A DNA stretch of 64,000 bases from Streptomyces sp. WMMC500 (lineage in GTDB: Bacteria > Actinomycetota > Actinomycetes > Streptomycetales > Streptomycetaceae), in NCBI RefSeq assembly GCF_027497195.1, contig NZ_CP114905.1, positions 4,227,001 to 4,291,000 of the forward strand, in the 5' to 3' direction. Position numbers and translations under genes: made by a program. The notes below the pieces were generated by a model, which did not search any database, was not told where the DNA came from, and was given only the letters and a program-made list of their open reading frames with translations. The stretch's first letter is position 1; every line of letters begins with the position of its first letter. This document shows positions 2,577-35,124 of this stretch, one piece after another.

Positions 2577-4258
2577 TGTCTGCCACCCCCTCCGCCGCGA
2601 GCGCCACCAGCGCCGCGCAGACCCGATCCCCCGCACCCCCGCGCGCCGCCGAGGGCACCGGGGCGCTGGCCGGCGCCGGGACGCTGTTCCGGTTCGCGCT
2701 GCGCCGGGACCGCGTCCGGCTGCCCGTCTGGGTGCTCGCGCTGTTCCTCGGGACCGTCTCCAGCGTCAGCAGCTTCGACACGTCGTACGACACGGCCGAG
2801 AAGCGCGCCGACATCGCCAAGACCATGGACAGCCCGGCCGGCCTGGCCATGACCGGCCCCGAGCGCTACCTCGACGACTACAACATCGGCTCCATGACCG
2901 GCCACCAGATGCTCGGCTTCACGGCCGTGCTCGTCGGCATCATGAGCGTGCTCATCATCTCCCGGCACACCAGGACCGAGGAGGAGACCAACCGCGCCGA
3001 GCTCGTACGCTCCGCCGTCGTCGGCCGGCACGCCTACCTCGCCGCCGCGCTCGGCGTCGCCGTCGTCGCCAACGTGGCGCTCGGGCTGCTGCTGGCCGGC
3101 GGCATGGCCGGCATGGGCATCGACGGCGTCGACGGCACGGGCTCCCTGCTCTACGGCCTCGCGCACACGGCGATCGGCCTCCTCTTCGCCGCCGTCGCAG
3201 CGATCACCGTGCAGGTCACGGCGTACGCGCGCGGGGCGTCCGGCATGGCCATGGCCGTCATCGGCGCGGCGTACGCGCTGCGCGCCGCCGGCGACGTGGG
3301 CAGCGACTGGGTGTCGTGGCTCTCGCCGATCGGCTGGGTCCAGCGCACGTACGTCTACGTCGACAACCGCTGGTGGCCGCTGCTGCTCGTGCTCGTCGCG
3401 GCCGGGGTCTGCGCGGCGGCCGGCTTCGTGCTCAGCACCCGCCGCGACGTCGGCGCGGGCCTGAAGGCCACCCGCCTCGGCAGCCCGGTCGGCTCCGAAA
3501 CCCTCACCAGCCCGCTGGGCTTCGCGCTGCGGCTGCACCGCGGGCTGCTGTTCGGCTTCGGCGCAGGCGCGCTGCTGCTCGGCGTGATGTACGGGTCGAT
3601 CCTCGGCGACGCCGAGGAGATGATCGACGGCATCGACGAACTGGAGGAGCAGCTCGCCGAGATCGGCGGCGCCAACGTGGCCGAGTCGTTCGCCTCGGTG
3701 GTCATGATCGTCATCGCCGTCGTCTGCTCGATCTACGTCGTGATGGCCGCCCTGCGCCCGCGCGCGGAGGAGTCCGCGGGCCGCGCGGAGCCGCTGCTCG
3801 CCACCGCGCTGTCGCGCGACCGGTGGGTGCTCAGCCACGCGCTCGTCGGCGCGGCCGGCGGCACTCTGCTGATGCTGCTCGCGGGCATCGGCTTCGGCGC
3901 CTCGGGGGCCGCCTCCACGGGCGACGGCGGGCTGTTCCTGGGGCTCGTCGGCGCCGCCCTGGCGTACGCGCCCGCGCTGTGGGTCGCCATCGGCCTGGCG
4001 GTCGCGCTCTTCGGCTGGGCGCCGCGCGCGGTGGCGGCGGCCTGGGTGGTGCCGGTGTACGGGTTCGTCGTCGGCTACCTCGGCGAGATCCTCAAGTTCC
4101 CGGACGTGCTGAACGACCTGTCCCCCTTCGGGCACGTACCGCAGCTCCCGGCGAAAGACATGTCGTGGCCGCCGCTGCTGGTGCTCACGGCGATAGCCGT
4201 GGGGCTGGTGTGGGTGGGCCTGCTGGGCTTCCGCCGGCGGGATCTGGAGACGAAGTAG
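2576..4258 (+). CDS. ABC-2 type exporter permease (polyketide-antibiotic type)
   Basis: A 560-residue integral membrane protein with about twelve predicted helices in two similar halves; the second half starts near residue 310 (GFALRLHRGLLFGFGAG). This matches the two-module permeases of Streptomyces annotated as tetronasin- or polyketide-antibiotic transporters. The soluble loop after the first helix (SSFDTSYDTAEKRADIAK) is characteristic of that group. It overlaps the ATPase gene by one base and would assemble with two copies of that protein in the cytoplasmic membrane. The substrate is unknown. A strong hairpin follows the stop. Confidence 0.9.
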   Translation: MSATPSAASATSAAQTRSPAPPRAAEGTGALAGAGTLFRFALRRDRVRLPVWVLALFLGTVSSVSSFDTSYDTAEKRADIAKTMDSPAGLAMTGPERYLDDYNIGSMTGHQMLGFTAVLVGIMSVLIISRHTRTEEETNRAELVRSAVVGRHAYLAAALGVAVVANVALGLLLAGGMAGMGIDGVDGTGSLLYGLAHTAIGLLFAAVAAITVQVTAYARGASGMAMAVIGAAYALRAAGDVGSDWVSWLSPIGWVQRTYVYVDNRWWPLLLVLVAAGVCAAAGFVLSTRRDVGAGLKATRLGSPVGSETLTSPLGFALRLHRGLLFGFGAGALLLGVMYGSILGDAEEMIDGIDELEEQLAEIGGANVAESFASVVMIVIAVVCSIYVVMAALRPRAEESAGRAEPLLATALSRDRWVLSHALVGAAGGTLLMLLAGIGFGASGAASTGDGGLFLGLVGAALAYAPALWVAIGLAVALFGWAPRAVAAAWVVPVYGFVVGYLGEILKFPDVLNDLSPFGHVPQLPAKDMSWPPLLVLTAIAVGLVWVGLLGFRRRDLETK

Positions 4259-4270
4259 CCGTCCACGCTC

Positions 4271-4312
4271 CGGGGGCGGGCGTCCTGCCGGCAGGCGGGG
4301 CGCCCGCCCCCG
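4271..4312 (+). terminator. strong GC hairpin after ABC exporter operon
   Basis: A perfect 12-bp inverted repeat (CGGGGGCGGGCG at 4271-4282 with its complement at 4301-4312) encloses an 18-base loop that itself contains the palindrome CCTGCCGGCAGG. It begins 13 bases after the permease stop and lacks a U-tract, as is common for terminators in high-G+C actinobacteria. Confidence 0.7.
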
Positions 4313-19229: not shown

Positions 19230-21836
19230 CTACTGCGCCGCACCGACCAGCAACTGGTCGCCGAACACGTCCACCCGCACGGTGTCGCCGTCCCGCACCT
19301 CGCCCGCCAGGATCTCCTTCGCGAGCTGGTCGCCGATCGCCGTCTGCACCAGCCGCCGCAGCGGCCGCGCCCCGTAGCTGAGATCCGGCTCCGGCTCGTC
19401 CTCCGGAACGCCGAGCCGCGCGAGCCAGGCCAGCGCCGCGTCGCTGACCTCCAGCGTGAGCCGGCGCTCGGCGAGCCGTTCCTGCAGACGGGTGAGCTGG
19501 ATGGCGGCGATGCGCTTGAGCTGGTCCCCGCCGAGGGCGTTGAAGACGACGAGGTCGTCGAGCCGGTTGAGGAACTCGGGCCGGAAGACCTTCCGCACCG
19601 TCTCCAGCACCCCCTCCCGCTTCTGCTCGTCCTTGATCATCGGGTCGACGAGGAAGGTGGAGCCGAGGTTGGAGGTGAGGATGAGGATGGTGTTGCGGAA
19701 GTCGACCGTACGGCCCTGACCGTCCGTCAACCGCCCGTCGTCCAGCACCTGCAGCAGGATGTCGAAGACCTCGTTGTGCGCCTTCTCCATCTCGTCCAGC
19801 AGGATGACCGAGTACGGGCGCCGCCGCACGGCCTCCGTGAGCTGGCCGCCCTCCTCGTACCCGACGTATCCCGGGGGCGCGCCGACCAGGCGGGAGACGG
19901 AGTGCTTCTCTCCGTACTCACTCATGTCGATGCGGACCATGGCCCGCTCGTCGTCGAAGAGGAAGTCGGCGAGCGCCTTCGCCAGCTCGGTCTTGCCCAC
20001 GCCGGTGGGGCCGAGGAAGAGGAACGAGCCCGTCGGCCGGTTGGGGTCGGCGATGCCGGCGCGGCTGCGGCGCACGGCGTCGGAGACGGCCCGTACCGCC
20101 TCGTCCTGGCCGATGAGGCGCCTGCCCAGCTCCTCCTCCATGCGCAGCAGCTTCTGCGTCTCGCCCTCCAGCAGCCGGCCCGCGGGGATGCCGGTCCAGG
20201 AGGAGATGACGTCGGCGATGTCGTCGGAGCCGACCTCCTCCTTGACCATCGTGTCCCGCTTGACCTCCTCCTCGGCGGCGGACGCCTCCTCCAGCTCGCG
20301 TTCGAGGGCGGGCAGTTCGCCGTAGAGGAGCTTGGAGGCGGTGTCGAAGTCGCCGTCGCGCTGCGCGCGCTCGGCGGTGCCGCGCAGCTCGTCCAGGCGC
20401 TCCTTCAGCTCGCCGACGCGGTTGAGGCCCTGCTTCTCCTTCTCCCAGCGCGCGGTGAGGCCGCGCAGCTCCTCCTCCTTGTCGGCGAGGTCGCGCTGCA
20501 GCCGCTCCAGGCGCTCGCGGGAGGCGACGTCGGACTCGTTCTTCAGTGCCAGCTCCTCCATGCGGAGCCGGTCGACGGCGCGCTGGAGTTCGTCGATCTC
20601 GGTGGGCGAGGAGTCGATCTCCATGCGGAGCCGGGAGGCGGCCTCGTCGACGAGGTCGATGGCCTTGTCGGGCAGGAAGCGGGAGGTGATGTACCGGTCG
20701 GAGAGGGTGGCGGCGCCGACGAGCGCGGAGTCGGCGATGACGACCTTGTGGTGTGCCTCGTAGCGCCCCTTGAGGCCACGGAGGATGGCGATGGTGTCCT
20801 CGACGGTGGGCTCGGCGACAAGTACCTGCTGGAACCGGCGCTCCAGGGCGGCGTCCTTCTCGATCCGCTCGCGGTACTCGTCGAGGGTCGTCGCGCCGAC
20901 CATGCGCAGCTCGCCGCGGGCGAGCATGGGCTTGAGCATGTTCCCGGCGTCCATGGCGGACTCGCCGCCCGCGCCGGCGCCGACGACGGTGTGCAGCTCG
21001 TCGATGAACGTGATGACCTGGCCCTCGCTCTCCCGGATCTCGGCGAGCACGGTCTTCAGCCGCTCCTCGAACTCGCCCCGGTACTTCGCCCCGGCGACCA
21101 TGGCACCGAGGTCGAGCGCGACGAGCCGCTTGTTCTTCAGGCTCTCCGGTACGTCACCCTTCACGATCCGCTGCGCGAGCCCCTCGACGACGGCGGTCTT
21201 GCCGACGCCGGGCTCGCCGATGAGGACGGGGTTGTTCTTCGTCCGCCGGGAGAGCACCTGCACGACGCGGCGGATCTCCTGGTCGCGCCCGATGACGGGG
21301 TCGAGCTTGCCGTCGCGGGCGGCGGCGGTGAGGTCGGTGCCGAACTTGCCGAGGGCCTGGTACGTGCTCTCGGGGTTCTTCGTGGTCACCCGCCGGTCGC
21401 CGCGAATCTTCTCGAACGCCTGCACGAGCGCCTTGGCGTTCGCGCCCTGCTTCTTCAGCAGCTCCTTGGCCGCCCCGCCCTCGGCGGCGACCGCGATGAG
21501 CAGGTGCTCGGTCGACACGTACTGGTCCCCGAGCTTCTTCGCCCGCGCGGCGGCGTCGGCGACGACGGCCAGCAGCTCCCGGTCCGCCTGCGGCGGCGAC
21601 ACGGTGGCCCCCTGCACGCTGGGCAACCCGCCGAGCAGCGCCTCGGCCCCGGACCGTACGGCGGCCTGGTCGGCGTCGACGGCGGCGAGCAGGTCCTGGA
21701 GGTTCTCGTTGTCCGCCACGTCGAGCAGCGAGAGCAGCAGGTGCACAGGGGTGATGTCCGGGTGCCCGCCGGACACCGCGCGGCTGTTGGCGCCGGCGAT
21801 CGCTTCCTGGCTCTTGTTGGTCAGCTCCGCGTCCAC
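19230..21836 (-). CDS. clpB: ATP-dependent disaggregase ClpB
   Basis: An 868-residue Hsp100 disaggregase that works with DnaK-DnaJ-GrpE to resolubilise aggregated proteins. Order: Clp-N repeat domain (1-145), NBD1 with Walker [11 protein letters not shown] near 205 and Walker [12 protein letters not shown], a coiled-coil M-domain (about 400-520, rich in Leu/Glu/Arg heptads), NBD2 with [10 protein letters not shown] near 605 and [11 protein letters not shown], and the C-terminal small domain with [12 protein letters not shown]. The GTG at 21834-21836 was chosen because [13 protein letters not shown] is the normal start; the frame is open further upstream, through the operator. A perfect HspR site lies 85 bases upstream, so heat-shock control through HspR is expected. 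Confidence 0.97.
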
Positions 21837-22088: not shown

Positions 22089-22385
22089 TCAGGCACAGTG
22101 GGGGGTGATGCTCTCGCTATCAGGTACGCCGTCGGCTGCTACGAGCACGTGATCCTCTTCGCCAAGATTGACGAAGATCACGCCGCAGCGAACCACGCAG
22201 CGTACATAGCGCCTTGACCTCCGGCGGAAGGCCCGGACGCTCCCACCCCGGTCACGGAGGATGGTGATCGGCTCGCCCAGCAGGGCTACCGCCATCCTGT
22301 CCCCGGGTTGGGGAACCGCCGTAGCGAGATCGACGGAGTACCAGTGGTTCTCCATCTTTCGGCGGTCGTCTGAAGTCATCGCCAT
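22089..22385 (-). pseudogene. truncated Rieske-type oxygenase-like protein
   Basis: A 98-residue open frame. Residues about 11-49 (ENHWYSVDLATAV, AVALLGEPITILRD, GGSVRAF) resemble the first strands of the Rieske domain of ring-hydroxylating oxygenases, where WYPVAL and LGE-VVLFRD are typical. Residues 58-73 (YVRCVVRCGVIFVNLGE) resemble the strand after the Rieske cluster (YPVVERYGLVWVWLGD). The central CxH...CxxH cluster motifs that should lie between are absent, so it reads as an internally deleted remnant. It may still be expressed, because a good terminator follows. An unrelated small protein cannot be excluded. Composition is less G+C-rich than the core genes. Confidence 0.4.
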
Positions 22386-22441: not shown

Positions 22442-22591
22442 TCAGTCCCACGCCGGATCCTGCTGAACCAGTACTACAGTTGACGCCTCGGGCATGTCGG
22501 CGGCATGCACCTCGGCCTCTTGGAAGTCAACACCCAGGCTCACCACCACGGTGGCGCCCAGGGCGACGACCCAACCGACGAGCTTCTTCAT
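22442..22591 (-). CDS. small secreted peptide precursor (49 aa)
   Basis: A 49-residue product starting MKKLVGW. Residues 4-20 are hydrophobic (LVGWVVALGATVVVSLG), followed by VDFQEAEVHA and a possible signal-peptidase site VHA before AD at residue 30, leaving a 19-residue acidic peptide ADMPEASTVVLVQQDPAWD. Without cleavage it would be a small membrane-tethered peptide. The ATG at 22589-22591 has a weak GGGA upstream; a longer in-frame start at 22723 would overlap the divergent regulator start. It is transcribed away from the array of four paralogous regulators, 117 bases from the first. I do not recognise a family. A signalling peptide read by the neighbouring regulators is an attractive but untested idea. 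Confidence 0.6.
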   Translation of the reverse strand: MKKLVGWVVALGATVVVSLGVDFQEAEVHAADMPEASTVVLVQQDPAWD

Positions 22592-22667
22592 TGGGATTCC
22601 CGGCTTCCCTTTTCGCTTCCCTGTGAAGAAGGTGCCGCACAAGACCGCCACACACCACCTCCGCATT

Positions 22668-22684
22668 GCATCATGTTCCTGAAA
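22668..22684. promoter_or_regulatory. shared 17-bp element, copy A
   Basis: GCATCATGTTCCTGAAA lies between the secreted-peptide gene and the first regulator, ending 24 bases before the regulator ATG. An almost identical sequence (16 of 17) occurs at 27244-27260 on the other side of the array. It contains the short dyad TTC-CT-GAA. It may be a binding site for one of the local regulators; this is inference. Confidence 0.5.
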
Positions 22685-22689
22685 CACAG

Positions 22690-22703
22690 CTTCCTGTGGG
22701 AAG
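22690..22703 (+). promoter_or_regulatory. hairpin covering the ribosome binding site of regulator 1
   Basis: CTTCC-TGTG-GGAAG can fold so that the Shine-Dalgarno GGAAGGA of the first regulator is paired. The SD is three bases from the ATG at 22709 and twelve from a second in-frame ATG at 22718, so the true start is uncertain, and translation might be tuned by the fold. The stem is only five base pairs. Confidence 0.3.
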
Positions 22704-22708
22704 GATAA

Positions 22709-23713
22709 ATGGGCGTAATGCATGACGAATCAGACCATTCGCATGGGTATACGGACCTGTGCGAGGCGGGCTCGGAGCTCTACGCCAAGGCGCTGCGAGC
22801 AGGCCGGATCCTCCGGTCCGAGGTAGAAAGCACGCCGTGTCTGATCGACCTGCTGCTGCTCCACCCCGACCCCGACGACCCACGCTGGCTGCACCCGCTC
22901 CCGCCCGCCACCGTGCTTGCGCGGCTGGGCAGCCCGCTGGAGCGAGAGATCCTGGATCGGCGGAAACAGACCCTCGCCCTGGCCGATGCCTTCGAGCCGT
23001 TTCTCGCCATCAGTCGCGAAGAACAGCCCACAGTCGGCCGTGTGATCGCCGAACTGAGCGGTGTGACGAATATCGACGAGACCATCGGCCAGGCCACAAC
23101 GGAGTGCGAAAAGGAACTGCTGACGGTGCAGCCCGGGGGAAGCCGGCCCCCGGAATCTCTGAACAGGTCCGTGGGACGGGTGCGTCCGCTGGTCGATCGC
23201 GGTGTACGGATACGCAGCCTGTACCAGCACACGGCCCGTCACAGCTACGGTCTGCTCGCCTATCAGGAGCAGGTCGGCTCCAGCCGCATGGAACTGCGCA
23301 CGCTCGAAGAACTCGTGGACCGCCTGATCATCATCGACCGGCGCAAAGCCTTCATCCCGGCTCAGCGCGACCTGCCGGTGAAGACCAACCGGAAGGCCGC
23401 GCTGGAGATTCGGCACCCCGGTCTCATCGAGTACCTGGTCGGCGTCTTCGAGCACCTGTGGCAGCATGCCGTCCCGCTCGACGAGGAGGTGCACTACGAC
23501 TCGCAGGAGCCGGACGGCATCTCGGGCGTCCAGCGCAGCATCGCCAAGCTTCTCGTGGAGGGCCACGTGGACGAGGTCATCGCCGACCGGCTGGGGATGA
23601 ACGTCCGCACCTGCCGCGCCCACATCGCCAAGCTCGCCACCACCCTCGGCAGCAATGGGCGGGGCCAACTCGGCTATCTCATCGCCCGCTCCGGCATCCT
23701 CGACCGGACCTGA
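22709..23713 (+). CDS. TrmB-like/LuxR-type regulator, array member 1
   Basis: A 334-residue cytosolic regulator. Residues about 18-65 (SELYAKALRAGRI, PCLIDLLLLHPDPDD, WLHPLPP) form a winged-helix-like N-terminal unit. Residues about 130-235 resemble the phospholipase-D-like effector domain of TrmB-type proteins (ELLTVQPGG, VRPLVDRGVRIRSLYQHTAR, ELRTLEELVDRLIIIDRRKA, FIPAQ). Residues about 272-328 are a LuxR-type HTH (VQRSIAKLLVEGHVDEVIAD, MNVRTCRAHIAKLATTLGS). It is the first of four consecutive paralogues and carries a short extra insertion (DLPVKTNRKAA) after FIPAQ that the others lack. Likely role: sensing a small ligand or peptide and binding DNA. Start at 22709 or 22718. Confidence 0.85.
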   Translation: MGVMHDESDHSHGYTDLCEAGSELYAKALRAGRILRSEVESTPCLIDLLLLHPDPDDPRWLHPLPPATVLARLGSPLEREILDRRKQTLALADAFEPFLAISREEQPTVGRVIAELSGVTNIDETIGQATTECEKELLTVQPGGSRPPESLNRSVGRVRPLVDRGVRIRSLYQHTARHSYGLLAYQEQVGSSRMELRTLEELVDRLIIIDRRKAFIPAQRDLPVKTNRKAALEIRHPGLIEYLVGVFEHLWQHAVPLDEEVHYDSQEPDGISGVQRSIAKLLVEGHVDEVIADRLGMNVRTCRAHIAKLATTLGSNGRGQLGYLIARSGILDRT

Positions 23714-23731
23714 GCGTCGGAGAGTACTGAG

Positions 23732-24706
23732 ATGCCCACCAGGCACGACCACACCCACGCACTCGACGAGCCGTGCCCGGCGGCCCAGGCGCTCTACGCC
23801 GACGCGCTGCACGACGGCCGCGTCACCCGCTCCTCCGTCGCGTCCGTCCCCTGCCTCACCGATCTGGCGCTCTTGGAGCCGGACCCCGAGAACCGCGAGT
23901 GGCTGCTGCCGGTCTCCGCGTTCGACGCGATGACCCGGCTACTCCACTCCCACGAGAAGCACATCACCAAACGCCAGCGGTCCTCGGCCAAGCTCACCGA
24001 AATGTTCACGGCCTTCATGGACATCAGCGCCGCGGCCGGTTCCGACGACTCACCGATCACCGTCCTGGAGGGCCTCGGTACGATCAACACCGCGCTGGAC
24101 CTGGCGGTCAGCGAGTGCTCGCACGAACTGCTCACCATCCAGCCGGAGGCCACCAGCCGCGGCGCCCGCGCTCTCGGCGAGGCCCTGCAGCGTGTACGCC
24201 CCTTGGTCGAGCGCGGTGTGCGGATGCGTACCCTCTACCAGCACGCCGCACGGGAAGCCCCGATGACTCTGGCGTATCTACGCTTCGTCGGCCCGCAACG
24301 GGTCGAGGTCAGAACGCTGGAAGAGATCATCGAACGGCTGATCATCGTCGACCGTGAGGTGGCGTTCATCCCGGCCCAGGCGGACCGCCAGGTTGCCCTG
24401 GAGTTGCGTCATCCCGGTCTCGTGGCCTATCTCGTCGGCGCCTTCGAGCAGTTCTGGCAACTCGCCACCCCCATGGAAGAGGCGGCCTACCGGGAGGCGG
24501 ACCACGAAGGAATCACGGGCGTGCAGCGCAGTATCGCCCGGCTGCTGGTCGAGGGCCACCTCGACCAGAACATCGCCCGCCGCCTCGGCATGAGCGTACG
24601 AACCTGCCGGGCCCACATCGCCAAGCTCGCCACCCTCCTTGGCAGCAGCAGCCGCACCCAACTCGGCTATCTCATCGCCTGTTCCGGCATCCTCGAGGAG
24701 ACTTGA
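23732..24706 (+). CDS. TrmB-like/LuxR-type regulator, array member 2
   Basis: A 324-residue paralogue of its three neighbours with the same layout. The N-terminal unit reads ALYADALHDGRVTRSSVASV-PCLTDLALLEPDPEN and WLLPVSAFDAM. The middle domain has ELLTIQPEATSR, VRPLVERGVRMRTLYQHAAR, VEVRTLEEIIERLIIVDREV and AFIPAQADRQ. The C-terminal HTH has VQRSIARLLVEGHLDQNIAR and MSVRTCRAHIAKLATLLGS. The linker between N-terminal and middle domains (about residues 72-115) is the most divergent part among the four and could hold specificity. It begins 18 bases after member 1 and ends overlapping a possible TTG start of member 3, so the genes form one operon. Confidence 0.85.
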   Translation: MPTRHDHTHALDEPCPAAQALYADALHDGRVTRSSVASVPCLTDLALLEPDPENREWLLPVSAFDAMTRLLHSHEKHITKRQRSSAKLTEMFTAFMDISAAAGSDDSPITVLEGLGTINTALDLAVSECSHELLTIQPEATSRGARALGEALQRVRPLVERGVRMRTLYQHAAREAPMTLAYLRFVGPQRVEVRTLEEIIERLIIVDREVAFIPAQADRQVALELRHPGLVAYLVGAFEQFWQLATPMEEAAYREADHEGITGVQRSIARLLVEGHLDQNIARRLGMSVRTCRAHIAKLATLLGSSSRTQLGYLIACSGILEET

Positions 24707-24714
24707 GACCGCAT

Positions 24715-25680
24715 ATGGCCCACCCCCACCACACCAACGGCCTCTGCGCCTCGGGCAGGAAGCTCTACGCCTCCGCCCTGCGCTCCGGCCGCATCTCGCA
24801 CGAGGCGACGGCGACCGCGCCCTGCCTCTTCGACCTGGAACTCTTACGCCCCGAGCCCGGCGACACCCAATGGCTGGTGCCGACGCCTCCGACGCAGGCG
24901 CTCGCCGGGCTCGTCAAGCCCCTGGAACGGGAGCTGAGCGAGTACCGCCTCTTCGTGGCGGCAATCGCCGACACCGTCGAGCAGGTGACGGCCCTCGACC
25001 TGGACGACCCGGCCGCGGCAGCGTTCACCGTCTGGACCGGTAAGGAGCGGATCGACGACGCGCTCGTGCGGGCCCTGGAGGACTGCACTCAGCAGTTCCT
25101 CGCGATCCAGCCGGCCAGCGGACGGACCAACTGGAACGCCGCGACGATGCGCACCACCACCCACCGCGTACGGCGGATGAGTGAACGCGGTGTCTCCCAG
25201 CGAACCTTGTACCACCACACCTACCGGCACCACCCCGCGCAGCTCGCCTACCTGGACGAGTTGAGCGACACCGGACTGGAGGTACGCACCCTTGAGGAGA
25301 TGCCGGAGCGGGTCCTTATCGTCGACCAGCAGGTCGCCTTCATCCCCGCGCAGCCCGACCGCGAGGTGGCAATGGAGATCCGCCACCCAGGCTTGGTCTG
25401 GTTCCTGCTCGCCATCTTCGAGCACTTCTGGCACCTCGGCGTCCCCTGGGAACACCGGCTTCCCGAGCAGGACACCCCTGAAGGCATCACCCCGGTCCAG
25501 CGCAGCATCGCCCGGCTGCTGGTCGAGGGCCACCTCGACGAGGCCATCGCCCGCCGCCTCGGCATGAACGTCCGCACCTGCCGCTCCCACATCGCCAAGC
25601 TCTCCACCGCGGTCGGCAGCAACAGCCGCGCCCAACTCGGCTACCTCATCGCACGCTCCGGCATGCTCGAGGAGGTCTGA
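24715..25680 (+). CDS. TrmB-like/LuxR-type regulator, array member 3 (contains TTA)
   Basis: A 321-residue paralogue. Distinctive parts: LYASALRSGRISHEATATA-PCLFDLELLRPEPGD, a middle domain with FLAIQPASGRTN, VRRMSERGVSQRTLYHHTYR and EVRTLEEMPERVLIVDQQVA, then FIPAQPDRE, and the HTH VQRSIARLLVEGHLDEAIAR with MNVRTCRSHIAKLSTAVGS. In the middle domain SERGVSQRTLYHH departs from the ERGVRIRSLY consensus of the others, which may change ligand recognition. Codon 44 is TTA (24844-24846), so translation should depend on the bldA tRNA. The ATG at 24715 was chosen over the TTG at 24703. It ends three bases before the start of member 4. Confidence 0.85.
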   Translation: MAHPHHTNGLCASGRKLYASALRSGRISHEATATAPCLFDLELLRPEPGDTQWLVPTPPTQALAGLVKPLERELSEYRLFVAAIADTVEQVTALDLDDPAAAAFTVWTGKERIDDALVRALEDCTQQFLAIQPASGRTNWNAATMRTTTHRVRRMSERGVSQRTLYHHTYRHHPAQLAYLDELSDTGLEVRTLEEMPERVLIVDQQVAFIPAQPDREVAMEIRHPGLVWFLLAIFEHFWHLGVPWEHRLPEQDTPEGITPVQRSIARLLVEGHLDEAIARRLGMNVRTCRSHIAKLSTAVGSNSRAQLGYLIARSGMLEEV

Positions 25681-25683
25681 GTC

Positions 25684-26634
25684 ATGGGACACACCCCCCA
25701 CCCCGCCTCGCGCGTCTGCACGACGGGCCGGAAGCTCTACGCCAAGGCGCTGCAGGGCGGTCGCATCGAGACGACGACGAGCACCGCCGCGCCCTGCCTG
25801 GTCGAGTCCGGTCTTCTGCGCCGCGACGGCGACTGGCTCGTGCCGGCGCCGCCGACGGAGGCCATGGCGCAGCTCTTCGAACTCGTGGCGAGCGAGATCG
25901 GCGGCTACCGGGACCTCGCTCTCACCCTCGCCGGCTCCGTCGGCCGGGCCGCACCGCCCGATGCGGATCCGGCCGCGGAACCCGCGATCACGGTGTGGGA
26001 GGGCAAGGAGCGGATAGACGCCGAGCTGGTGCGCGCCCTCCAGATGTGCACATCGGAGTTGCTCACCGCCCAGCCCATGGGCAACAGGTCGGCGTGGGTG
26101 TACGAAGCCGCCATCCAGCGCGTGCTGCCCCTGGCGGAACGGGGAGTCCGCATTCGCAGCCTGTACAGCCACACCGCGCGGCACACCCCGCAGGCGCTGG
26201 ACTACCTGGCGCGCGTGCAGCACACGGGCCTGGAAGTCCGCACCCTCGAAGAGAACATCGAGCGGGCCATCATCATCGACCGCGAGACCGCCTTCATCCC
26301 CGCACAGGAGGACAACGCGGTCGCCATCGAGGTCCGCCATCGCGGCGTGGTCTGGTACATCGCCGCCACGTTCGACCGTTTCTGGCAACTCGCCACACCC
26401 TGGGGCGAGGACGTCGAGAACCGGGACACCCCGGAGGGGATCACCGGTGTCCAGCTCAAGATCGCCCGGCTTCTCGTGGAGGGCCACCTCGACGAGGCCA
26501 TCGCCCGCCGGCTCGGCATGAACGTCCGTACCTGCCGCTCCCACATCGCCAGGCTCAGCACCGCACTCGGCAGCGACAGCCGCGTCCAGCTCGGCTACCT
26601 GCTCGCCCGCTCCGGAGTCGTCGACGACCCCTGA
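25684..26634 (+). CDS. TrmB-like/LuxR-type regulator, array member 4
   Basis: A 316-residue paralogue closing the array. N-terminal unit LYAKALQGGRIETTTSTAA-PCLVESGLLRRDGDWLVPAPPTEAM, middle domain with ELLTAQPMGNRS, LPLAERGVRIRSLYSHTARH, LEVRTLEENIERAIIIDRET and AFIPAQEDN, and HTH VQLKIARLLVEGHLDEAIAR with MNVRTCRSHIARLSTALGS. The C-terminal 60 residues are the most conserved region across the four, so related DNA sites are likely. It shares with member 3 the segment VWxGKERIDxxLVRAL (about residues 103-118), so 3 and 4 look like the most recent duplicates. It is followed by 166 bases and a convergent HTH gene. Confidence 0.85.
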   Translation: MGHTPHPASRVCTTGRKLYAKALQGGRIETTTSTAAPCLVESGLLRRDGDWLVPAPPTEAMAQLFELVASEIGGYRDLALTLAGSVGRAAPPDADPAAEPAITVWEGKERIDAELVRALQMCTSELLTAQPMGNRSAWVYEAAIQRVLPLAERGVRIRSLYSHTARHTPQALDYLARVQHTGLEVRTLEENIERAIIIDRETAFIPAQEDNAVAIEVRHRGVVWYIAATFDRFWQLATPWGEDVENRDTPEGITGVQLKIARLLVEGHLDEAIARRLGMNVRTCRSHIARLSTALGSDSRVQLGYLLARSGVVDDP

Positions 26635-26800
26635 CGGGCGCCGGCGGCGCGCAGCGGGGCGAGGCGGGGGGAACGGAGACGCTGGTGCGTATGAGGCCGG
26701 GAAGCGAACGCACCAGCGCTCCGTCCGAGGGGTGCCGCGGGCGCCGCGGACGGCGATGGCCGGTCGCGTCCGGGTCGGTCCGGAGGGCACACGCCCCACA

Positions 26801-27118
26801 TCATTCCCTACCGTGCTGGCACCGGCTATTGCCTCTTCCGGCAGCCCGGTCCCCGTCCGATCCGGGCGGCAGCAGGGCCCGTCGGTTGCGGTCGGCGACC
26901 AGGGCGGCCTGGACGCGTGACTCCACCTTCAGCTTGCGGCAGATGTTCGTCAGATGGGCGCGGACCGTACGCTCCGCGACCCCCAGTTGCGACGCGAGCC
27001 GGCGGTTGGTCGGACCGTCGGCGAGCAGGAGAAGCACCTCGCGTTCCCGGTCGGAGAGCAGCGCGAGACCGACCGGGGGAGCCTGTCGCGCCGTGTTGCC
27101 CGAACTGTGAGACCTCAC
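26801..27118 (-). CDS. stand-alone LuxR-type HTH protein
   Basis: A 105-residue protein consisting mainly of a GerE/LuxR helix-turn-helix: LSDREREVLLLLADGPTNRRLA then LGVAERTVRAHLTNICRKLKVESRVQAAL, about residues 21-72. There is no receiver or ligand domain, so it is a constitutive or partner-controlled DNA binder. The GTG start at 27116-27118 has GGGAG about ten bases upstream. It faces the regulator array (convergent) and is divergent from the NACHT gene. Its HTH is closer to the classical LuxR consensus than to the array members and is not another copy of them. Confidence 0.85.
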   Translation of the reverse strand: MRSHSSGNTARQAPPVGLALLSDREREVLLLLADGPTNRRLASQLGVAERTVRAHLTNICRKLKVESRVQAALVADRNRRALLPPGSDGDRAAGRGNSRCQHGRE

Positions 27119-27243: not shown

Positions 27244-27272
27244 GCATCATCTTCCTGAAATTCATGATGATG
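27244..27272. promoter_or_regulatory. shared 17-bp element, copy B, within a dyad
   Basis: GCATCATCTTCCTGAAA at 27244-27260 matches copy A (22668-22684) in 16 of 17 positions. Here it is also half of a dyad: CATCATC (27245-27251) and GATGATG (27266-27272) around 14 bases. It sits between the divergent LuxR-HTH gene and the NACHT gene, 126 and 93 bases from their starts. Confidence 0.5.
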
Positions 27273-27352
27273 AGGGTGTACATACCCGAACGAACCGGAC
27301 CATCGGCGAACACCTCCGGTGACGCCTCACCACCCGCTATATCGTCAGCCGC

Positions 27353-30300
27353 ATGGAACCCGCAGCCGTCGGCATCAGGCTCGCGTCCGCCGTCGTCGCG
27401 CCCCTCGTCCGGCGGCTGTTCCGCAGCGAGGGGCCCGGGGCCGGGCTGGTGGAGCGGCCGGTGCGAATGGCGGCGCTGGTGTCGTTCCGCGGCGAGCGGC
27501 GGGAGCTGGACGAGGGCGATCTGCGTACGCTCGCGGACACCCTCGTACGGCGCGCCCTCCGCGGCACCGACGGGGAGGGCCACCGCGAGACCCCCGTCCC
27601 CGCCGACGAGGCCGCCCCCGTCGCCGACGCACTCGCCCGCAGCCTCGCCGCCCTCGGCGACCTCGACCTCGACGACGTCCAGGCCGTCCAGCTCGGCCCC
27701 GAAGCCCTCGCCCGCCGGCTCCGCCGGGCCGCCGCCCGGGACGCCGCCGCCCGGGGCGGCGGCGATCCCGTACGCGACCTGTCCGCCGACGCCGCCGCCT
27801 TCCACGACGCCCTCCTCGACACCGCCTGCCTGCACATCCTGCACTTCTTCAGCCAGCGCTCCACCTTCGTCGCCCGCACCCTCGTCGAGCAGTCCCGCCG
27901 CCAGGCCGACCAGATCGCCCGCCTCGACGCGCTCCTCGCCCGCACCCCCCTCCCGGCCGCGCGGGACGCGGCCTTCGAGCGGGAGTACTTCGCGTACGTC
28001 GCCAAGAAGCACGGCAAACTCACCATCTACGGCGTCGACCTCGCCGACTCCCCCGCGAAGTGGCCCCTGGACGTGGCGTACCTCCGGCTGGAGGCGTCCG
28101 CCGAGCACCACGCCGGCAACTCGCCCGAGGCGCTGTTCCCCACTGACGAGTACGCCGAGAGCGACCCCCTCCCCGCCCCCGCCCTCCCCGCCGACCAGGC
28201 CCTCGCCACCCACGACCGCGTCCTCCTCCGCGGCGCCGCGGGCTCCGGCAAGACCACCCTCGTGCAGTGGCTCGCCCTCTCCGCCACCCGCGCGGACACC
28301 CGCGCCGAAAGCCGGGAGGCGAGCACCATGGACTACCTCGCCGGCCGCGTCCCCTTCGTCCTCCCCCTCCGCACCCTCACCCGCCACGGCCAGCGCCTCC
28401 CCGCCCCCCGCGACTTCCTCTCCGCCACCGGCAGCCCCCTCGCCGGCGCCCAGCCCGACGGCTGGGAGCACCGCGTGCTCACCGCCCGCCGCGGGCTGCT
28501 CCTCGTCGACGGCATCGACGAGGTCCCCCGCGCCGAGCGCGACCGCGCCCGCCGCTGGCTCTCCGACCTCATCGACGCCTATCCCGGCAACCGCTGGCTC
28601 GTCACCTCCCGCCCCTCCGCCGTCGGCGAGGACTGGCTCGCCGCCGAGGGCTTCACCGAGCTGACCCTCGCCCCCATGCGCCCCGCAGACCTCGCCCGCT
28701 TCATCGCCCGCTGGCACGCCGCCGTCCGCACCGGCGCCCCCGCGGCGGACGACGCGCAGCTCACGGCGTACGAACAGCAGCTCACCGCCGCCGTACGGCA
28801 CACCTCCGACCTCGGCCGGCTGGCCACCAACCCGCTGATGTGCGGCCTGATGTGCGCGCTCAACCGCGCCCGCCGCGGCCACCTCCCGCGCGGGCGCAAG
28901 GAGTTGTACGAGGCCGCCCTGTCGATGCTGCTCACCCGCCGCGACCGCGAGCGCGACATGGCCGTCCCGGACCTCCGCGAGGAACCCCAACTCCAGGTAC
29001 TGCAGCGCCTCGCGTACTGGCTGATCCGCAACGGCCGCACCGAGCTGGACCGCGCCCGCGCCGAATCCCTCGTCGCCGCCGCCCTCCCCGCCGTCCCGGA
29101 GGTCGCCGCCCTCGGCGACGCCGGCGCCGTGCTGGAGCACTTCCGCGACCGCAGCGGACTCCTGCGCGAACCGGGCCCGGGGGCCGTCGACTTCGTCCAC
29201 CGCACGTTCCAGGACTACCTGGGCGCCCGCGCCGCGGTGGAGGAGGGCGACATCGGCGTGCTGGCCGCGCACGCGGCGGACGACCAGTGGGAGGACGTCA
29301 TCCGCATGGCCGTCGCGCAGTCCCGCCCGCGGGAGCGCGAGGAGATCCTGCGGGAGCTGCTGGCGGCGGCGAAGGCGCGCGAGGGGGTCGAGGGCGTACG
29401 CATCCGGCTGCTCGCCACCGCCTGCCTGGAGCACGCGACGGAGCTGGCGCCGGCGGTACGGGAGGCCGTGGAGCGGGAGACGAAGGCGCTGGTCCCGCCG
29501 CGGACGGTGGTGGAGGCACGGGCGCTCGGCGCGGCCGGGCCGCTGGTGCTGGACCTGCTGCCGGGCCCGGAGGAGACGGACGACGCGACGACCACCCTGG
29601 TCGCCATAGCCGCGACCTACGTGGAGTCGGACCGCGCCATCCCGTTCCTCGCCCGGTACGCCACCCATCCCTCCCTGGACGTGCGCCGGCAACTCGTCTG
29701 GGCCTGGCAGCGCTTCGACACCGAGGAGTACGCCGACGACGTCATCGCCCGCCTCGACGTGGACGAGTTGTACTTCACCGTCACCTCCGACGCGGAGCTA
29801 CGCGCCCTGCGCAGACTCGGCGGCAGGCCGGGGATAGACGTGCGCGGCGGCCCGCTCGACCCCTCCGCGCTGCACGACGGCCTCGCCGCGACCCGCCTCA
29901 CCAAGCTGATCATCCGCGGCCAGCACGGGCTGCGGGACCTGGACTTCCTGGGCGGCCAGCGCGAGCTGCGCGAGCTGCGGCTCACCGAGTGTCTCGGCCT
30001 CCGCGACGCCTCCGCCCTGTCCGGGCTGCCGCTGCGCTCCCTCATCCTCGACAAGGTGCCGGAGCTGGCCGCAGGCGTCCCCGAACTGCTCGCCTCACTG
30101 CCGCAGGTGGAGCATCTGTCCCTCTCTCCGGACCGGCGGCGCCCGCTGGACCTCGACGCACTGCCGGAGCTGCCGGCTCTGAAGACGCTGAACCTGCTGA
30201 CCGGCCACACCGCCAACCTGCGACCGCTGGCCAGGCACCCCGAGCTGGCCAACGTCTATCTCGGCTGGCGCCACGCAGCCGCTGCGGACGACTGGCCGGC

Positions 30301-30625
30301 GCTGGCCGCGCTCCCCCGACTCGACGGGCTGCGGTCCCGGCCGGACCTGCTGGCCGTCGCCTCCGACGACGCCGCGCTGCCGGGCGTCCTGTTCCTCGGC
30401 CTGGTCAACGACCGGCCCGTTGACGCACGCGACCTGGCCCGGCTCCCGGAACTCTTCCCGCGGCTCAGCCGCCTCGTACTCGACATGCCCCGCGGCGACC
30501 GGCCGTTGGACCTCTCCCCCCTTGCCGGCCACGGCTCCCTGCGCCACGTCACCTTGCGGGAGCACACGAGAGACCTCCACGCCGGGCTCCCGCCCCACGT
30601 GGAGGTCTCCTACCTCGCCGACTGA
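27353..30625 (+). CDS. NACHT NTPase with C-terminal leucine-rich repeats (bacterial NLR-like)
   Basis: A 1090-residue STAND NTPase. Residues 1-about 230 are a helical N-terminal domain (MEPAAVGIRLASAVVAPLVRRLF opening) like the NACHT N-terminal helical domains of actinobacteria. Walker A GAAGSGKTTLVQW is near 293-305, Walker B GLLLVDGIDEVPRAERD near 380-396, and the sensor WLVTSRPSAV near 419. Winged-helix and helical domains follow, with LEHFRDRSGLLREPGPGAVDFVHRTFQDYLGARA near 600-634, a typical NACHT arginine/His region. Residues about 850-1085 hold leucine-rich repeats (LRELRLTECLGL, LPALKTLNLL, FPRLSRLVLDM). Such proteins are often antiphage sensors that kill the infected cell, but no separate effector gene is evident. 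There is no clear Shine-Dalgarno. Confidence 0.88.
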   Translation: MEPAAVGIRLASAVVAPLVRRLFRSEGPGAGLVERPVRMAALVSFRGERRELDEGDLRTLADTLVRRALRGTDGEGHRETPVPADEAAPVADALARSLAALGDLDLDDVQAVQLGPEALARRLRRAAARDAAARGGGDPVRDLSADAAAFHDALLDTACLHILHFFSQRSTFVARTLVEQSRRQADQIARLDALLARTPLPAARDAAFEREYFAYVAKKHGKLTIYGVDLADSPAKWPLDVAYLRLEASAEHHAGNSPEALFPTDEYAESDPLPAPALPADQALATHDRVLLRGAAGSGKTTLVQWLALSATRADTRAESREASTMDYLAGRVPFVLPLRTLTRHGQRLPAPRDFLSATGSPLAGAQPDGWEHRVLTARRGLLLVDGIDEVPRAERDRARRWLSDLIDAYPGNRWLVTSRPSAVGEDWLAAEGFTELTLAPMRPADLARFIARWHAAVRTGAPAADDAQLTAYEQQLTAAVRHTSDLGRLATNPLMCGLMCALNRARRGHLPRGRKELYEAALSMLLTRRDRERDMAVPDLREEPQLQVLQRLAYWLIRNGRTELDRARAESLVAAALPAVPEVAALGDAGAVLEHFRDRSGLLREPGPGAVDFVHRTFQDYLGARAAVEEGDIGVLAAHAADDQWEDVIRMAVAQSRPREREEILRELLAAAKAREGVEGVRIRLLATACLEHATELAPAVREAVERETKALVPPRTVVEARALGAAGPLVLDLLPGPEETDDATTTLVAIAATYVESDRAIPFLARYATHPSLDVRRQLVWAWQRFDTEEYADDVIARLDVDELYFTVTSDAELRALRRLGGRPGIDVRGGPLDPSALHDGLAATRLTKLIIRGQHGLRDLDFLGGQRELRELRLTECLGLRDASALSGLPLRSLILDKVPELAAGVPELLASLPQVEHLSLSPDRRRPLDLDALPELPALKTLNLLTGHTANLRPLARHPELANVYLGWRHAAAADDWPALAALPRLDGLRSRPDLLAVASDDAALPGVLFLGLVNDRPVDARDLARLPELFPRLSRLVLDMPRGDRPLDLSPLAGHGSLRHVTLREHTRDLHAGLPPHVEVSYLAD

Positions 30626-30645: not shown

Positions 30646-31113
30646 CTAACCGCGCTTCTTCTTCGGCTTCCACACCACCAGCGCGCTCGTCTGCTGCACC
30701 TGCTGGTACGGCACCAGATCCCGCCGGTACGACGCGTGCACCTGCGCCTCCCGCTGCGCCATCGCAGACGCCGCGCCGTCCACCGCGTCCGTCAGCTCCG
30801 CCACCTTCGCCTGCAGCGCCGCGACCTGGTTCTCCAGCTCGATGATCCGCTTGATCCCGGCCAGGTTGATGCCCTCGTCCTGGCTCAGCGCCTGCACCTG
30901 CCGCAGCAGCGCGATGTCCCGCGCCGAGTACCGCCGGCCGCGCCCGGCCGTGCGGTCCGGGGAGACCAGGCCGAGGCGGTCGTACTGGCGGAGGGTCTGC
31001 GGGTGCAGGCCCGAGAGTTCGGCGGCTACGGAGATGACGTAGACCGGCGTCTCCTCGGTCAGCTCGTACGGGTTGCGGCCGCGGGCGCCGCGTCCGCCGT
31101 TTCTGCCGTTCAT
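30646..31113 (-). CDS. hspR: heat-shock repressor HspR
   Basis: A 155-residue MerR-family repressor. Residues about 23-95 form the winged HTH (VYVISVAAELSGLHPQTLRQ, YDRLGLVSPDRTAGRGRRYS), followed by a coiled coil (IELENQVAALQAKVAELTDAV). HspR binds HAIR elements, with DnaK as co-repressor, and controls the dnaK operon and clpB. The ATG at 31111-31113 lies five bases past the dnaJ stop, so it is the last gene of dnaK-grpE-dnaJ-hspR, the standard streptomycete autoregulatory arrangement. The basic C-terminus (WKPKKKRG) is typical. The open frame continues upstream antisense to nothing recognisable. Confidence 0.95.
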   Translation of the reverse strand: MNGRNGGRGARGRNPYELTEETPVYVISVAAELSGLHPQTLRQYDRLGLVSPDRTAGRGRRYSARDIALLRQVQALSQDEGINLAGIKRIIELENQVAALQAKVAELTDAVDGAASAMAQREAQVHASYRRDLVPYQQVQQTSALVVWKPKKKRG

Positions 31114-31118
31114 CGTCG

Positions 31119-32315
31119 TCAAGCTCCCTTCGCGGCCTTGAACAGCTCCGCGCGCGGGTCCTCGCCCGCGGTCGCCTCCCGGTACGACTCCAGCGACTCG
31201 CGCGCCGTACCGTCCGTATCCTTCGGCACCGCCACCTCGACGGTGACGAGCAGGTCCCCGCGCGTGCCGTCCTTGCGGACGGCGCCCTTGCCGCGGGCGC
31301 GCATCGTGCGTCCGTTGGGGGTGCCCGGCGGCAGCTTCAGGGTGACCGGCGGGCCGCCGAGCGTGGGCACCTTGATGTCCGCGCCGAGTGCCGCCTCCGG
31401 GAAGGAGACGGGGACCGTCACCATCAGATTGTCGCCCTTGCGGCCGAAGACGGGGTGGCCGTCGACGTGCACGACGACGTACAGGTCGCCGCCGGGGCCG
31501 CCGCGTTCGCCCGGACCGCCCTTGCCGCGCAGCCGTATCCGCTGCCCGTCCTGAACCCCCGCGGGGATGCGGACCTGCATCGTGCGGGACGACTTGGCCC
31601 GGCCGCTGCCCTTGCAGACGTCGCAGGGGTCCTGGGCGATGAGCCCGCGGCCCTTGCAGTCCACGCACGGGTCGGTCAGCGAGAAGCCGCCACCGCCGCC
31701 GCGGGAGACCTGGCCGGTGCCCACGCAGGTCGGGCAGACCCGCGGGGAGCCGTTCTTGTCGCCCGTGCCGGCGCACGTCTTGCAGGGGGCCGACGACGAC
31801 ATCCGCAGCGGGACCGTGGCGCCCTCGATGGCCTCCGTGAAGCTGAGCGTGACCTCCGACTCGATGTCCTGGCCGCGGCGCGGCTGCGTACGCCCGCCGC
31901 CGCGGTTGAACAGCCCGCCGAAGACGTCGCCGAGGCCGCCGCCGAAGCCGCCGGTGCCGGTGCCGGTCTGGCCGCCGGGGCCGCCGCCGCCCGGACCCGA
32001 GCCGCCGAAGAGGTCGCCGAGGTCGAAGTTGAACGAGCCGCCGCCGCCCGCGCCGGGGCCCGGGCGGAAGCCGCCGTTGCCGAAGAGGGTGCGCGCCTCG
32101 TCGTACTCCTTGCGCCGCCGGGGGTCGCCGAGCACGTCGTTGGCCTCGGAGACCTCCTTGAAGCGCTCCTCGGCCGCGGCGTCGCCCTTGTTGGCGTCCG
32201 GGTGGTACTGGCGGGCGAGCTTGCGGTACGCCTTCTTGATCTCGGCCTCGGTGGCGTCCTTCGGGACGCCGAGAACCTTGTAGTAGTCCTTCTCGATGAA
32301 GTCCTTGGTGCTCAT
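31119..32315 (-). CDS. dnaJ: molecular chaperone DnaJ
   Basis: A 398-residue type I J-protein that delivers substrates to DnaK and stimulates its ATPase. J-domain residues about 10-75 with HPD (YHPDANKG), then a Gly/Phe-rich region from about 78 to 145. Four zinc-binding CxxCxGxG repeats follow (CKTCAGTG, CPTCVGTG, CVDCKGRG, CDVCKGSG) and two C-terminal beta domains. All cysteines are present. It follows grpE by 42 bases in the HspR-controlled operon. Confidence 0.97.
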   Translation of the reverse strand: MSTKDFIEKDYYKVLGVPKDATEAEIKKAYRKLARQYHPDANKGDAAAEERFKEVSEANDVLGDPRRRKEYDEARTLFGNGGFRPGPGAGGGGSFNFDLGDLFGGSGPGGGGPGGQTGTGTGGFGGGLGDVFGGLFNRGGGRTQPRRGQDIESEVTLSFTEAIEGATVPLRMSSSAPCKTCAGTGDKNGSPRVCPTCVGTGQVSRGGGGGFSLTDPCVDCKGRGLIAQDPCDVCKGSGRAKSSRTMQVRIPAGVQDGQRIRLRGKGGPGERGGPGGDLYVVVHVDGHPVFGRKGDNLMVTVPVSFPEAALGADIKVPTLGGPPVTLKLPPGTPNGRTMRARGKGAVRKDGTRGDLLVTVEVAVPKDTDGTARESLESYREATAGEDPRAELFKAAKGA

Positions 32316-32357
32316 TCCCGGCGTCCCTCCTCTCGTCCCTCGGCGGCTGCTACGGCG

Positions 32358-35124
<2,767 letters not shown>

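Follow-up and report, generated by a model that had tools for sequence, protein, structure and literature searches.

A putative pentapeptide-pheromone locus with TrmB-like/LuxR receptors in Streptomyces sp. WMMC500 and its relatives across the genus

Signals exchanged by Actinobacteria are typically small molecules made by enzymes, and the RRNPP systems of Bacillota (Rap, NprR, PlcR, PrgX, Rgg, ComR) are recognized by a small propeptide, Sec secretion, a receptor of 250–500 amino acids (aa), tetratricopeptide repeats (TPRs) and adjacent genes, according to the accessible part of PMC10075063. The locus described here belongs to Streptomyces sp. WMMC500 and lies in a 64,000-nucleotide (nt) stretch of contig NZ_CP114905.1 (positions 4,227,001 to 4,291,000; hereafter the window, in which all coordinates are counted). 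It comprises a small gene for a putative peptide precursor and, divergent from it, four consecutive genes for putative receptors, R1 to R4 (Table 1). It resembles RRNPP systems in that a small propeptide gene (49 aa) stands beside that of a cytosolic regulator, the putative receptors comprise 316–334 aa, and receptor and propeptide genes are adjacent at 71 of 72 core loci. It differs from them in its receptors, which combine TrmB-like/phospholipase D (PLD)-like domains with a LuxR-type helix-turn-helix (HTH) and in which no TPR family was detected by Pfam at E ≤ 1, as well as in the divergent and usually multi-copy precursor and in its host, a member of the Actinomycetota.

Within Streptomyces, the A-factor receptor ArpA is a TetR-type protein. 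Gamma-butyrolactone signaling of the A-factor/ArpA type is similar to the present locus in that an extracellular autoregulator is recognized by a receptor in the cytosol (PMC4748050, available sections), but in the present case a ribosomally encoded signal is assumed and the receptor represents another family. The same sections of this review of quorum sensing in Actinobacteria mention no such peptide-receptor system, and no description of a pentapeptide/TrmB-like-LuxR system was found among published papers, preprints not being covered. Based on comparison with related loci, we consider it likely that the locus belongs, in expanded form, to a peptide-pheromone system found across the genus, in which a cytosolic TrmB-like/LuxR regulator would act as receptor much as in RRNPP or arbitrium systems, though without TPRs. 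An initial annotation of the same DNA had noted neither the pentapeptide repeats of related loci nor the operator shared with them nor the NACHT-LRR (NLR) gene that starts at 27353, all of which are presented below. The genome consists of a single contig of 8.6 Mb and is close to those of S. phytophilus (95% R1 identity) and S. aculeolatus (78%).

In a scan of named-species genomes, the best 80 of 85 loci were considered, 72 of which (L044–L115) contained the core orthologue. A divergent small open reading frame (ORF) featuring a basic, hydrophobic N-terminus and the motif [D/E]-x-x-W-x was observed at 71 of these 72 loci; the remaining one ends at a contig edge (L054, left out of the precursor count). 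The pentapeptide occurs in one, two, three, four, five or six copies in 4, 9, 20, 21, 14 and 3 loci, respectively, exemplified by DPGWS x5 in S. narbonensis and by EPSWE x4, EPTWD x5, DVTWE x3, DSHWD x4 and DTVWS x2 elsewhere, and the precursor at a further locus (L030) contains seven DSGWT copies. All 71 precursors differ in sequence, with lengths as called of 50–123 aa compared to 49 aa in the window. Among Trp residues past residue 20, 254 of 262 are located within [DE]xxW, and at least two copies were detected in 67 of the 71 precursors vs. a mean of 5.2 and a maximum of 13 for shuffled tails. Furthermore, the copies of one precursor share 95% identity, compared to 33% for the five residues that follow each copy, and differing codons encode 548 of the 1803 identical residue pairs between copies (30%). 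This indicates that the peptide, and not a DNA repeat, has been kept.

Applied upstream of 602 other called genes at the same loci, the repeat detector reported at least two copies in five cases; on inspection, two of these were core receptors at loci with shifted coordinates and three were chance frames. Upstream of 68 core receptor genes predicted by a crude gene caller, it detected at least two copies in 59 cases and one copy in five, a yield below the main count because start positions were called differently. For 39 ungapped related pairs, nonsynonymous differences affected 10.5% of motif codons and 24.2% of spacer codons. Changes mapped on the receptor tree amounted to 5 at motif position 1 (D/E), 5 at position 2 (Pro or not), 21 at position 3 and 22 at position 5. 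Searches of Pfam and NCBIfam returned no match for the window precursor and no convincing family for the precursors overall, and 12 database relatives of one precursor were named hypothetical, uncharacterized or secreted protein, or were unnamed.

In order to relate peptides to receptors, 98 receptors with precursors were compiled, excluding L016, L054 and L101, whose best-scoring receptor has no precursor immediately upstream; for L101 and for G047 (the genome of L016), precursors were read separately. Six of the 98 rows repeat the receptor of another row, partly due to overlapping genome collections, leaving 92 distinct receptors. Peptide position 3 tracks the receptor site corresponding to residue 154 of R1 (R1-154), which is residue 151 of the modelled chain and part of helix 145–160 in the PLD-like domain. 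Thr in the peptide is paired with Gly in the receptor in 21/21 cases, Ser with Ala in 36/39 and Gly with Ala in 24/25 (21/21, 33/35 and 23/24 for distinct receptors). The remaining position-3 residues are less clear, peptide Ala being paired with Ala five times and with Ser once, the latter representing the type of S. phytophilus and the window. In total, 4203 column-by-label tests were set up, and among those with independent pairs this combination achieved the top score (2.33; next column 1.43). Six independent pairs were supported, of which five are in agreement and one is uninformative; none disagrees. No covariation as clear as that of position 3 was observed for motif positions 1, 2 and 5.

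These results also bear on the possibility that the precursor gives rise to a multi-copy ribosomal peptide product with an antimicrobial or structural role, the LuxR proteins being mere pathway regulators. Spacer-separated repeated cores are known in some precursors of ribosomally synthesized and post-translationally modified peptides, biosynthetic clusters usually include a divergent regulator, and a copy on an S. globosus plasmid adjoins non-ribosomal peptide synthetase (NRPS)/MbtH genes. However, we regard such a product as improbable, given that one precursor is paired with one receptor genus-wide at a core chromosomal place and that the receptor covaries with peptide position 3. Moreover, the clpB-hspR interval of the window holds only the genes listed in Table 1 and a 98-aa Rieske-like ORF, so that no modification or export gene is present there; gene calls for the other neighborhoods originate from a crude script, and the genes were identified only in part.

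The second line of evidence is a putative operator. Its core, GCATCATGTTCCTG, lies between the precursor and receptor genes at 73 of 73 loci (the window and the 72 core loci), one base off in one of them. A partly palindromic arm follows it, together with a GGG that never varies; at one locus (L106), the operator CATGTTCCTGTAATACAGGAACATG is a near-perfect palindrome. The core was absent from eight distant loci. Among 121 genus genomes, GCATCATSTTCCTG was found in 91 and a reversed-pattern control gave 5 matches, while exact GCATCATGTTCCTG occurred in 84 of 97 genomes possessing the core receptor (best E ≤ 1e-120) vs. 1 of 24 lacking it. Scanning the WMMC500 genome with a 21-nt pattern revealed two sites within one mismatch, namely those at 22668 and 27244. 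A genome-wide operator regulon was rejected, since allowing three mismatches added just two further weak matches. From the genus scan, four GCATCATG sites away from a receptor were inspected: two lie within coding frames, one is intergenic and lacks the palindrome, and the fourth (G063) is the operator at its usual locus, where the precursor persists and the core receptor is missing. At the clpB locus of the latter genome (L132, around 3000–4300), precursor (DTGWG x2) and operator are retained, and no core receptor was found there or elsewhere in the genome.

Archaeal TrmB, which binds sugars, and TrmBL2 share with the Streptomyces receptors a winged helix-turn-helix (wHTH), a long helix and a PLD-like domain, whereas the additional C-terminal LuxR HTH and the linked peptide gene distinguish the latter. 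The initial annotation had assigned wHTH, PLD-like domain and C-terminal LuxR HTH to all four regulators, and profile and fold comparisons support this assignment. The family profile matched TrmBL2 over profile positions 42–240 (2.4e-6) and, with its C-terminus, DevR/NarL-type HTHs (1.9e-6); a wHTH at the N-terminus followed by the PLD-like domain, as in TrmB-like proteins, was recovered from profile and model. For the AlphaFold2 model (predicted local distance difference test score, pLDDT, 79; predicted template modelling score, pTM, 0.55), Foldseek reported TrmBL2 as the best match (E 1.8e-13; TM-score just 0.34–0.45 over the whole chain), followed by TrmB and PLD-fold proteins. The GerE HTH of Pfam scored above the cut-off in R2 and below it in R1, R3 and R4. 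The catalytic HKD motif of PLD enzymes was found neither in the 98 receptors nor in R1–R4, and screening R1, R4 and the NLR gene with PADLOC gave no match at E 0.01.

The TrmB/TrmBL2 fold, together with heat-shock neighbors on both sides of the locus (between clpB and hspR-dnaJ-grpE-dnaK), could also mean that the receptors sense a sugar or another metabolite as archaeal TrmB does, and that the peptide is an unrelated co-regulated envelope or stress product. We rate this as very improbable, as it leaves unexplained the concerted change of peptide copies, the receptor-peptide covariation and the phage-borne copies of receptor and precursor genes described below.

R2–R4 are paralogues of R1 (47–53% identity to R1). 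As described initially, the four regulator genes are consecutive and separated by 18, 8 and 3 nt, their HTHs are nearly constant (75–87% identity) whereas linkers (13–30%) and PLD-like domains (41–55%) diverge, and the motif VWxGKERIDxxLVRAL is confined to R3 and R4. The divergent short gene (49 codons, encoded protein ending VLVQQDPAWD, secretion predicted) and the solo LuxR HTH gene facing the array were likewise recovered. Homologous loci lacking a peptide gene had been named as an observation that would speak against an integrated system; the opposite was found, with the precursor present at 71 of 72 core loci. Of the proposed multi-input switch, the tie between the regulators and a peptide gene is supported, but the array itself is not its central element, 52 of 72 named core loci having one family member within the fetched stretch. 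As to several sensors for related ligands or peptides, no precursor was detected beside the extra receptors in 20 loci checked, so that several ligands could mean only peptides from elsewhere. Competition of R1–R4 for similar DNA sites is plausible, considering their similar HTHs and the two near-identical operators in the genome.

Two to five family matches per genome (E ≤ 1e-40) are common in the genus. Tandem arrays comprise four receptors in the lineage of the window and five in S. aculeolatus, and separate expansions occurred in other lineages, e.g., five tandem and one convergent gene at L109/L143 (the same sequence in two collections). In the tree, whose deeper branching is weakly supported, R1 groups with the core receptors of other species, and S. 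phytophilus and S. aculeolatus possess orthologues of R2–R4 with open frames, as does G047 in the case of R2 and R3, which places the expansion before the species group arose. The lack of adjacent precursors and the differences of arrays between lineages would suit neutral or decaying duplicates, the operator upstream of the NLR gene then being a chance inheritance from a duplicated promoter. These open frames, however, and the retention of operator 2 in four species argue for the opposite, and decay is regarded as unlikely.

Operator 2 is located upstream of the NLR gene and was also found in G047, S. phytophilus and S. aculeolatus, the latter two with one mismatch in the 13-nt core. The NLR gene downstream of it is visible in the window, in G047 (84% homologue at the equivalent place) and in S. 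aculeolatus; the S. phytophilus contig stops there. Both gene pairs diverge alike, solo LuxR and NLR across operator 2 and precursor and R1 across operator 1. Members of the NLR family were detected in 70 of 199 genomes (WMMC500 included), with several copies in some. The idea that the operator generally accompanies this family was rejected, since it was missing at 10 of 10 NLR homologues examined elsewhere.

Table 1. Features of the putative pheromone locus (window coordinates)
Feature	Coordinates	Strand	Basis
Putative pheromone precursor gene, 49 aa, C-terminal QQDPAWD	22442..22591	-	translation; divergent homologues at 71/72 core loci
Codons of putative pheromone core DPAWD, family motif [D/E]-x-x-W-x	22445..22459	-	mature ends predicted
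Putative operator 1, GCATCATGTTCCTGAAACACAGCTTCCTGTGGGAAG, between precursor and R1 genes	22668..22703	+	14-mer core at window + 72 loci
R1, TrmB-like/LuxR putative receptor, core orthologue, 334 aa	22709..23713	+	homology, tree, AlphaFold2 model
R2, paralogous putative receptor, 324 aa	23732..24706	+	homology, tree
R3, paralogous putative receptor, 321 aa	24715..25680	+	homology, tree
R4, paralogous putative receptor, 316 aa	25684..26634	+	homology, tree
Solo LuxR-type HTH protein, 105 aa, divergent from NLR gene across operator 2	26801..27118	-	GerE 4e-20
Putative operator 2, GCATCATCTTCCTGAAATTCATGATGATGAGGGTGT, upstream of NLR gene	27244..27279	+	0 mismatches to 21-nt pattern
NNH1-NACHT-LRR STAND NTPase, NLR-like, 1090 aa, candidate target	27353..30625	+	Pfam NNH1 2e-54, NACHT 5e-28

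The locus is bordered by clpB (19230–21836, minus strand) and hspR-dnaJ-grpE-dnaK (30646–35020, minus strand); from clpB to hspR, the order is precursor (-), R1–R4 (+), solo LuxR HTH (-) and NNH1-NACHT-LRR (+). Pfam assigned Clp/AAA with ClpB D2, MerR HTH, DnaJ, GrpE and Hsp70 to the flanking genes, the name HspR being based on sequence and place. The solo LuxR gene is retained in G047 (82% identity) and was not seen in the other Streptomyces neighborhoods read. The 98-aa ORF (22089–22385) bears weak similarity to the beginning of a Rieske domain (E 0.002), and many of the Streptomyces loci read contain relatives of it in the interval from clpB to the precursor.

For the favored pheromone system, the following course is proposed. 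The small gene would encode a precursor that, judging from its N-terminus, is secreted, and Trp-centered pentapeptides, DPAWD in this case, would be freed outside the cell. An oligopeptide permease may re-import the pentapeptide, for which the genome offers 19 SBP_bac_5 matches as candidates, and the PLD-like domain of the divergently encoded cytosolic regulator would bind it, as suggested by the peptide-receptor covariation. Binding may then shift the occupancy of the conserved, partly palindromic operator by the regulator, and the shared intergenic position of this site would allow feedback on both precursor and receptor genes. In the lineage of the window, multiplication has brought the receptor genes to four and a second operator copy precedes the NLR-type gene, by which density (or kin) information would probably set the NLR level. 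R1 is probably the receptor for the peptide of this locus. R2–R4 lack own precursors and carry Ala, Thr and Ala, respectively, at the equivalent of R1-154, so that other ligands are suspected; their probable role is to modulate the response or to sense related peptides.

Several observations weigh against this interpretation. The window precursor possesses a single pentapeptide copy, precursor leaders (5.2% nonsynonymous differences) are more conserved than the motif, secretion was assessed from the N-terminus with a simple score for its basic and hydrophobic residues, and the detector missed the precursor at 4 of the 68 core receptor genes from crude gene calls. The sign test for covariation yielded p = 0.0625, the minimum possible with five pairs, and exceptions exist: Ser is paired with Gly in 2 of 35 distinct receptors, DPTWG of G047 (Thr) with Ala, and DPGWG of a viral contig (L203; Gly) with Gly. 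The exact 14-mer is absent from 13 of 97 core-receptor genomes, including one with a 1-mismatch copy (G012); operator 2 of S. phytophilus and S. aculeolatus begins with CCTCATC instead of GCATCATC; and the NLR link was observed only in the species group of the window. Finally, a divergent secreted-looking ORF with Trp motif accompanies 17 of 41 distant homologues, as assessed by eye with no matched control, and none of the three distant homologues in the WMMC500 genome.

The Trp motif of these 17 ORFs is located near the end in 15 and internally in two, examples being DSQWGP, DSSWGG, DQGWN, NISWD, DLTWG and a CxxCW type. Distant receptors at L163, L165, L168, L169, L172 and L173, which come from another family in the order, are accompanied by divergent secreted-looking ORFs ending in the CxxCW type, which perhaps form a second peptide class. 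Such pairs also occur on plasmids: P0001 matched 114 plasmid records, and four of seven fetched loci contain a divergent ORF with a DxxW-type motif, comprising the S. globosus plasmid mentioned above with a DTGWG x3 precursor, two loci next to AfsA-like genes and one other. On plasmids L196 and L198, receptor/precursor-like pairs directly adjoin AfsA-like genes (of the butyrolactone synthase type), which hints that peptide and butyrolactone signaling may be cross-connected.

Phage Chymera, which infects S. venezuelae, encodes a receptor (gp29) and a divergent precursor with two DPGWG copies (gp30; L193, 1855–3130) next to an integrase gene, on account of which it is presumably temperate. It was the only matching phage among 50,697 records, and its receptor aligns with the TrmB-like/LuxR receptors at 22–27%. 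Three viral contigs (L201–L203) carry the same pair with receptor identities of 100, 88 and 68%, the precursor spacers differing in the latter two. This layout suggests an arbitrium-like module: as in AimR-AimP of Bacillus phages, a receptor and a secreted-looking, pentapeptide-type precursor are encoded together, in Chymera beside the integrase. In contrast to arbitrium, the receptor fold is unrelated (TrmB-like/LuxR rather than the TPR-containing AimR family), the genes are divergent, and each precursor holds two DPGWG copies. A bolder extension, which we put forward tentatively and consider rather doubtful, is a genus-wide language of Trp-centered pentapeptides based on multi-copy precursors and TrmB-like/LuxR receptors, in which some temperate phages with matching DPGWG modules would speak or listen, and in the lineage of the window a self receptor together with eavesdropping paralogues would set an NLR-type defense gene.

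Regarding S. coelicolor, gene order (L138) and the locus numbers that we take clpB and hspR to have in this species suggest SCO3664, SCO3665 and SCO3666 as probable orthologues. In the available portion of PMC6585502, SCO3664 is named among genes that, when disrupted, raised actinorhodin production more than 50-fold, and a complementing plasmid is listed; SCO3665 and SCO3666 are listed as LuxR-family genes in that of PMC3282765. Moreover, BldK takes up a signal oligopeptide in S. coelicolor, and this extracellular, imported oligopeptide acts on development (PMC11303876, accessible part); the likeness provides a lead, and identity with the pentapeptide is not implied.

If the SCO3664 orthology is true, the peptides may touch antibiotic production. 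The locus also offers a lead toward the oligopeptide that S. coelicolor imports as a signal. From the phage modules, a dialogue of the arbitrium kind may be suspected among actinophages, and the operator upstream of the NLR gene may link cell-cell signaling to a putative immune gene. The candidate peptides can be synthesized and tested at once. A Streptomyces-wide ribosomal peptide language, if true, would represent a new class of bacterial peptide signaling with a receptor fold unrelated to RRNPP.

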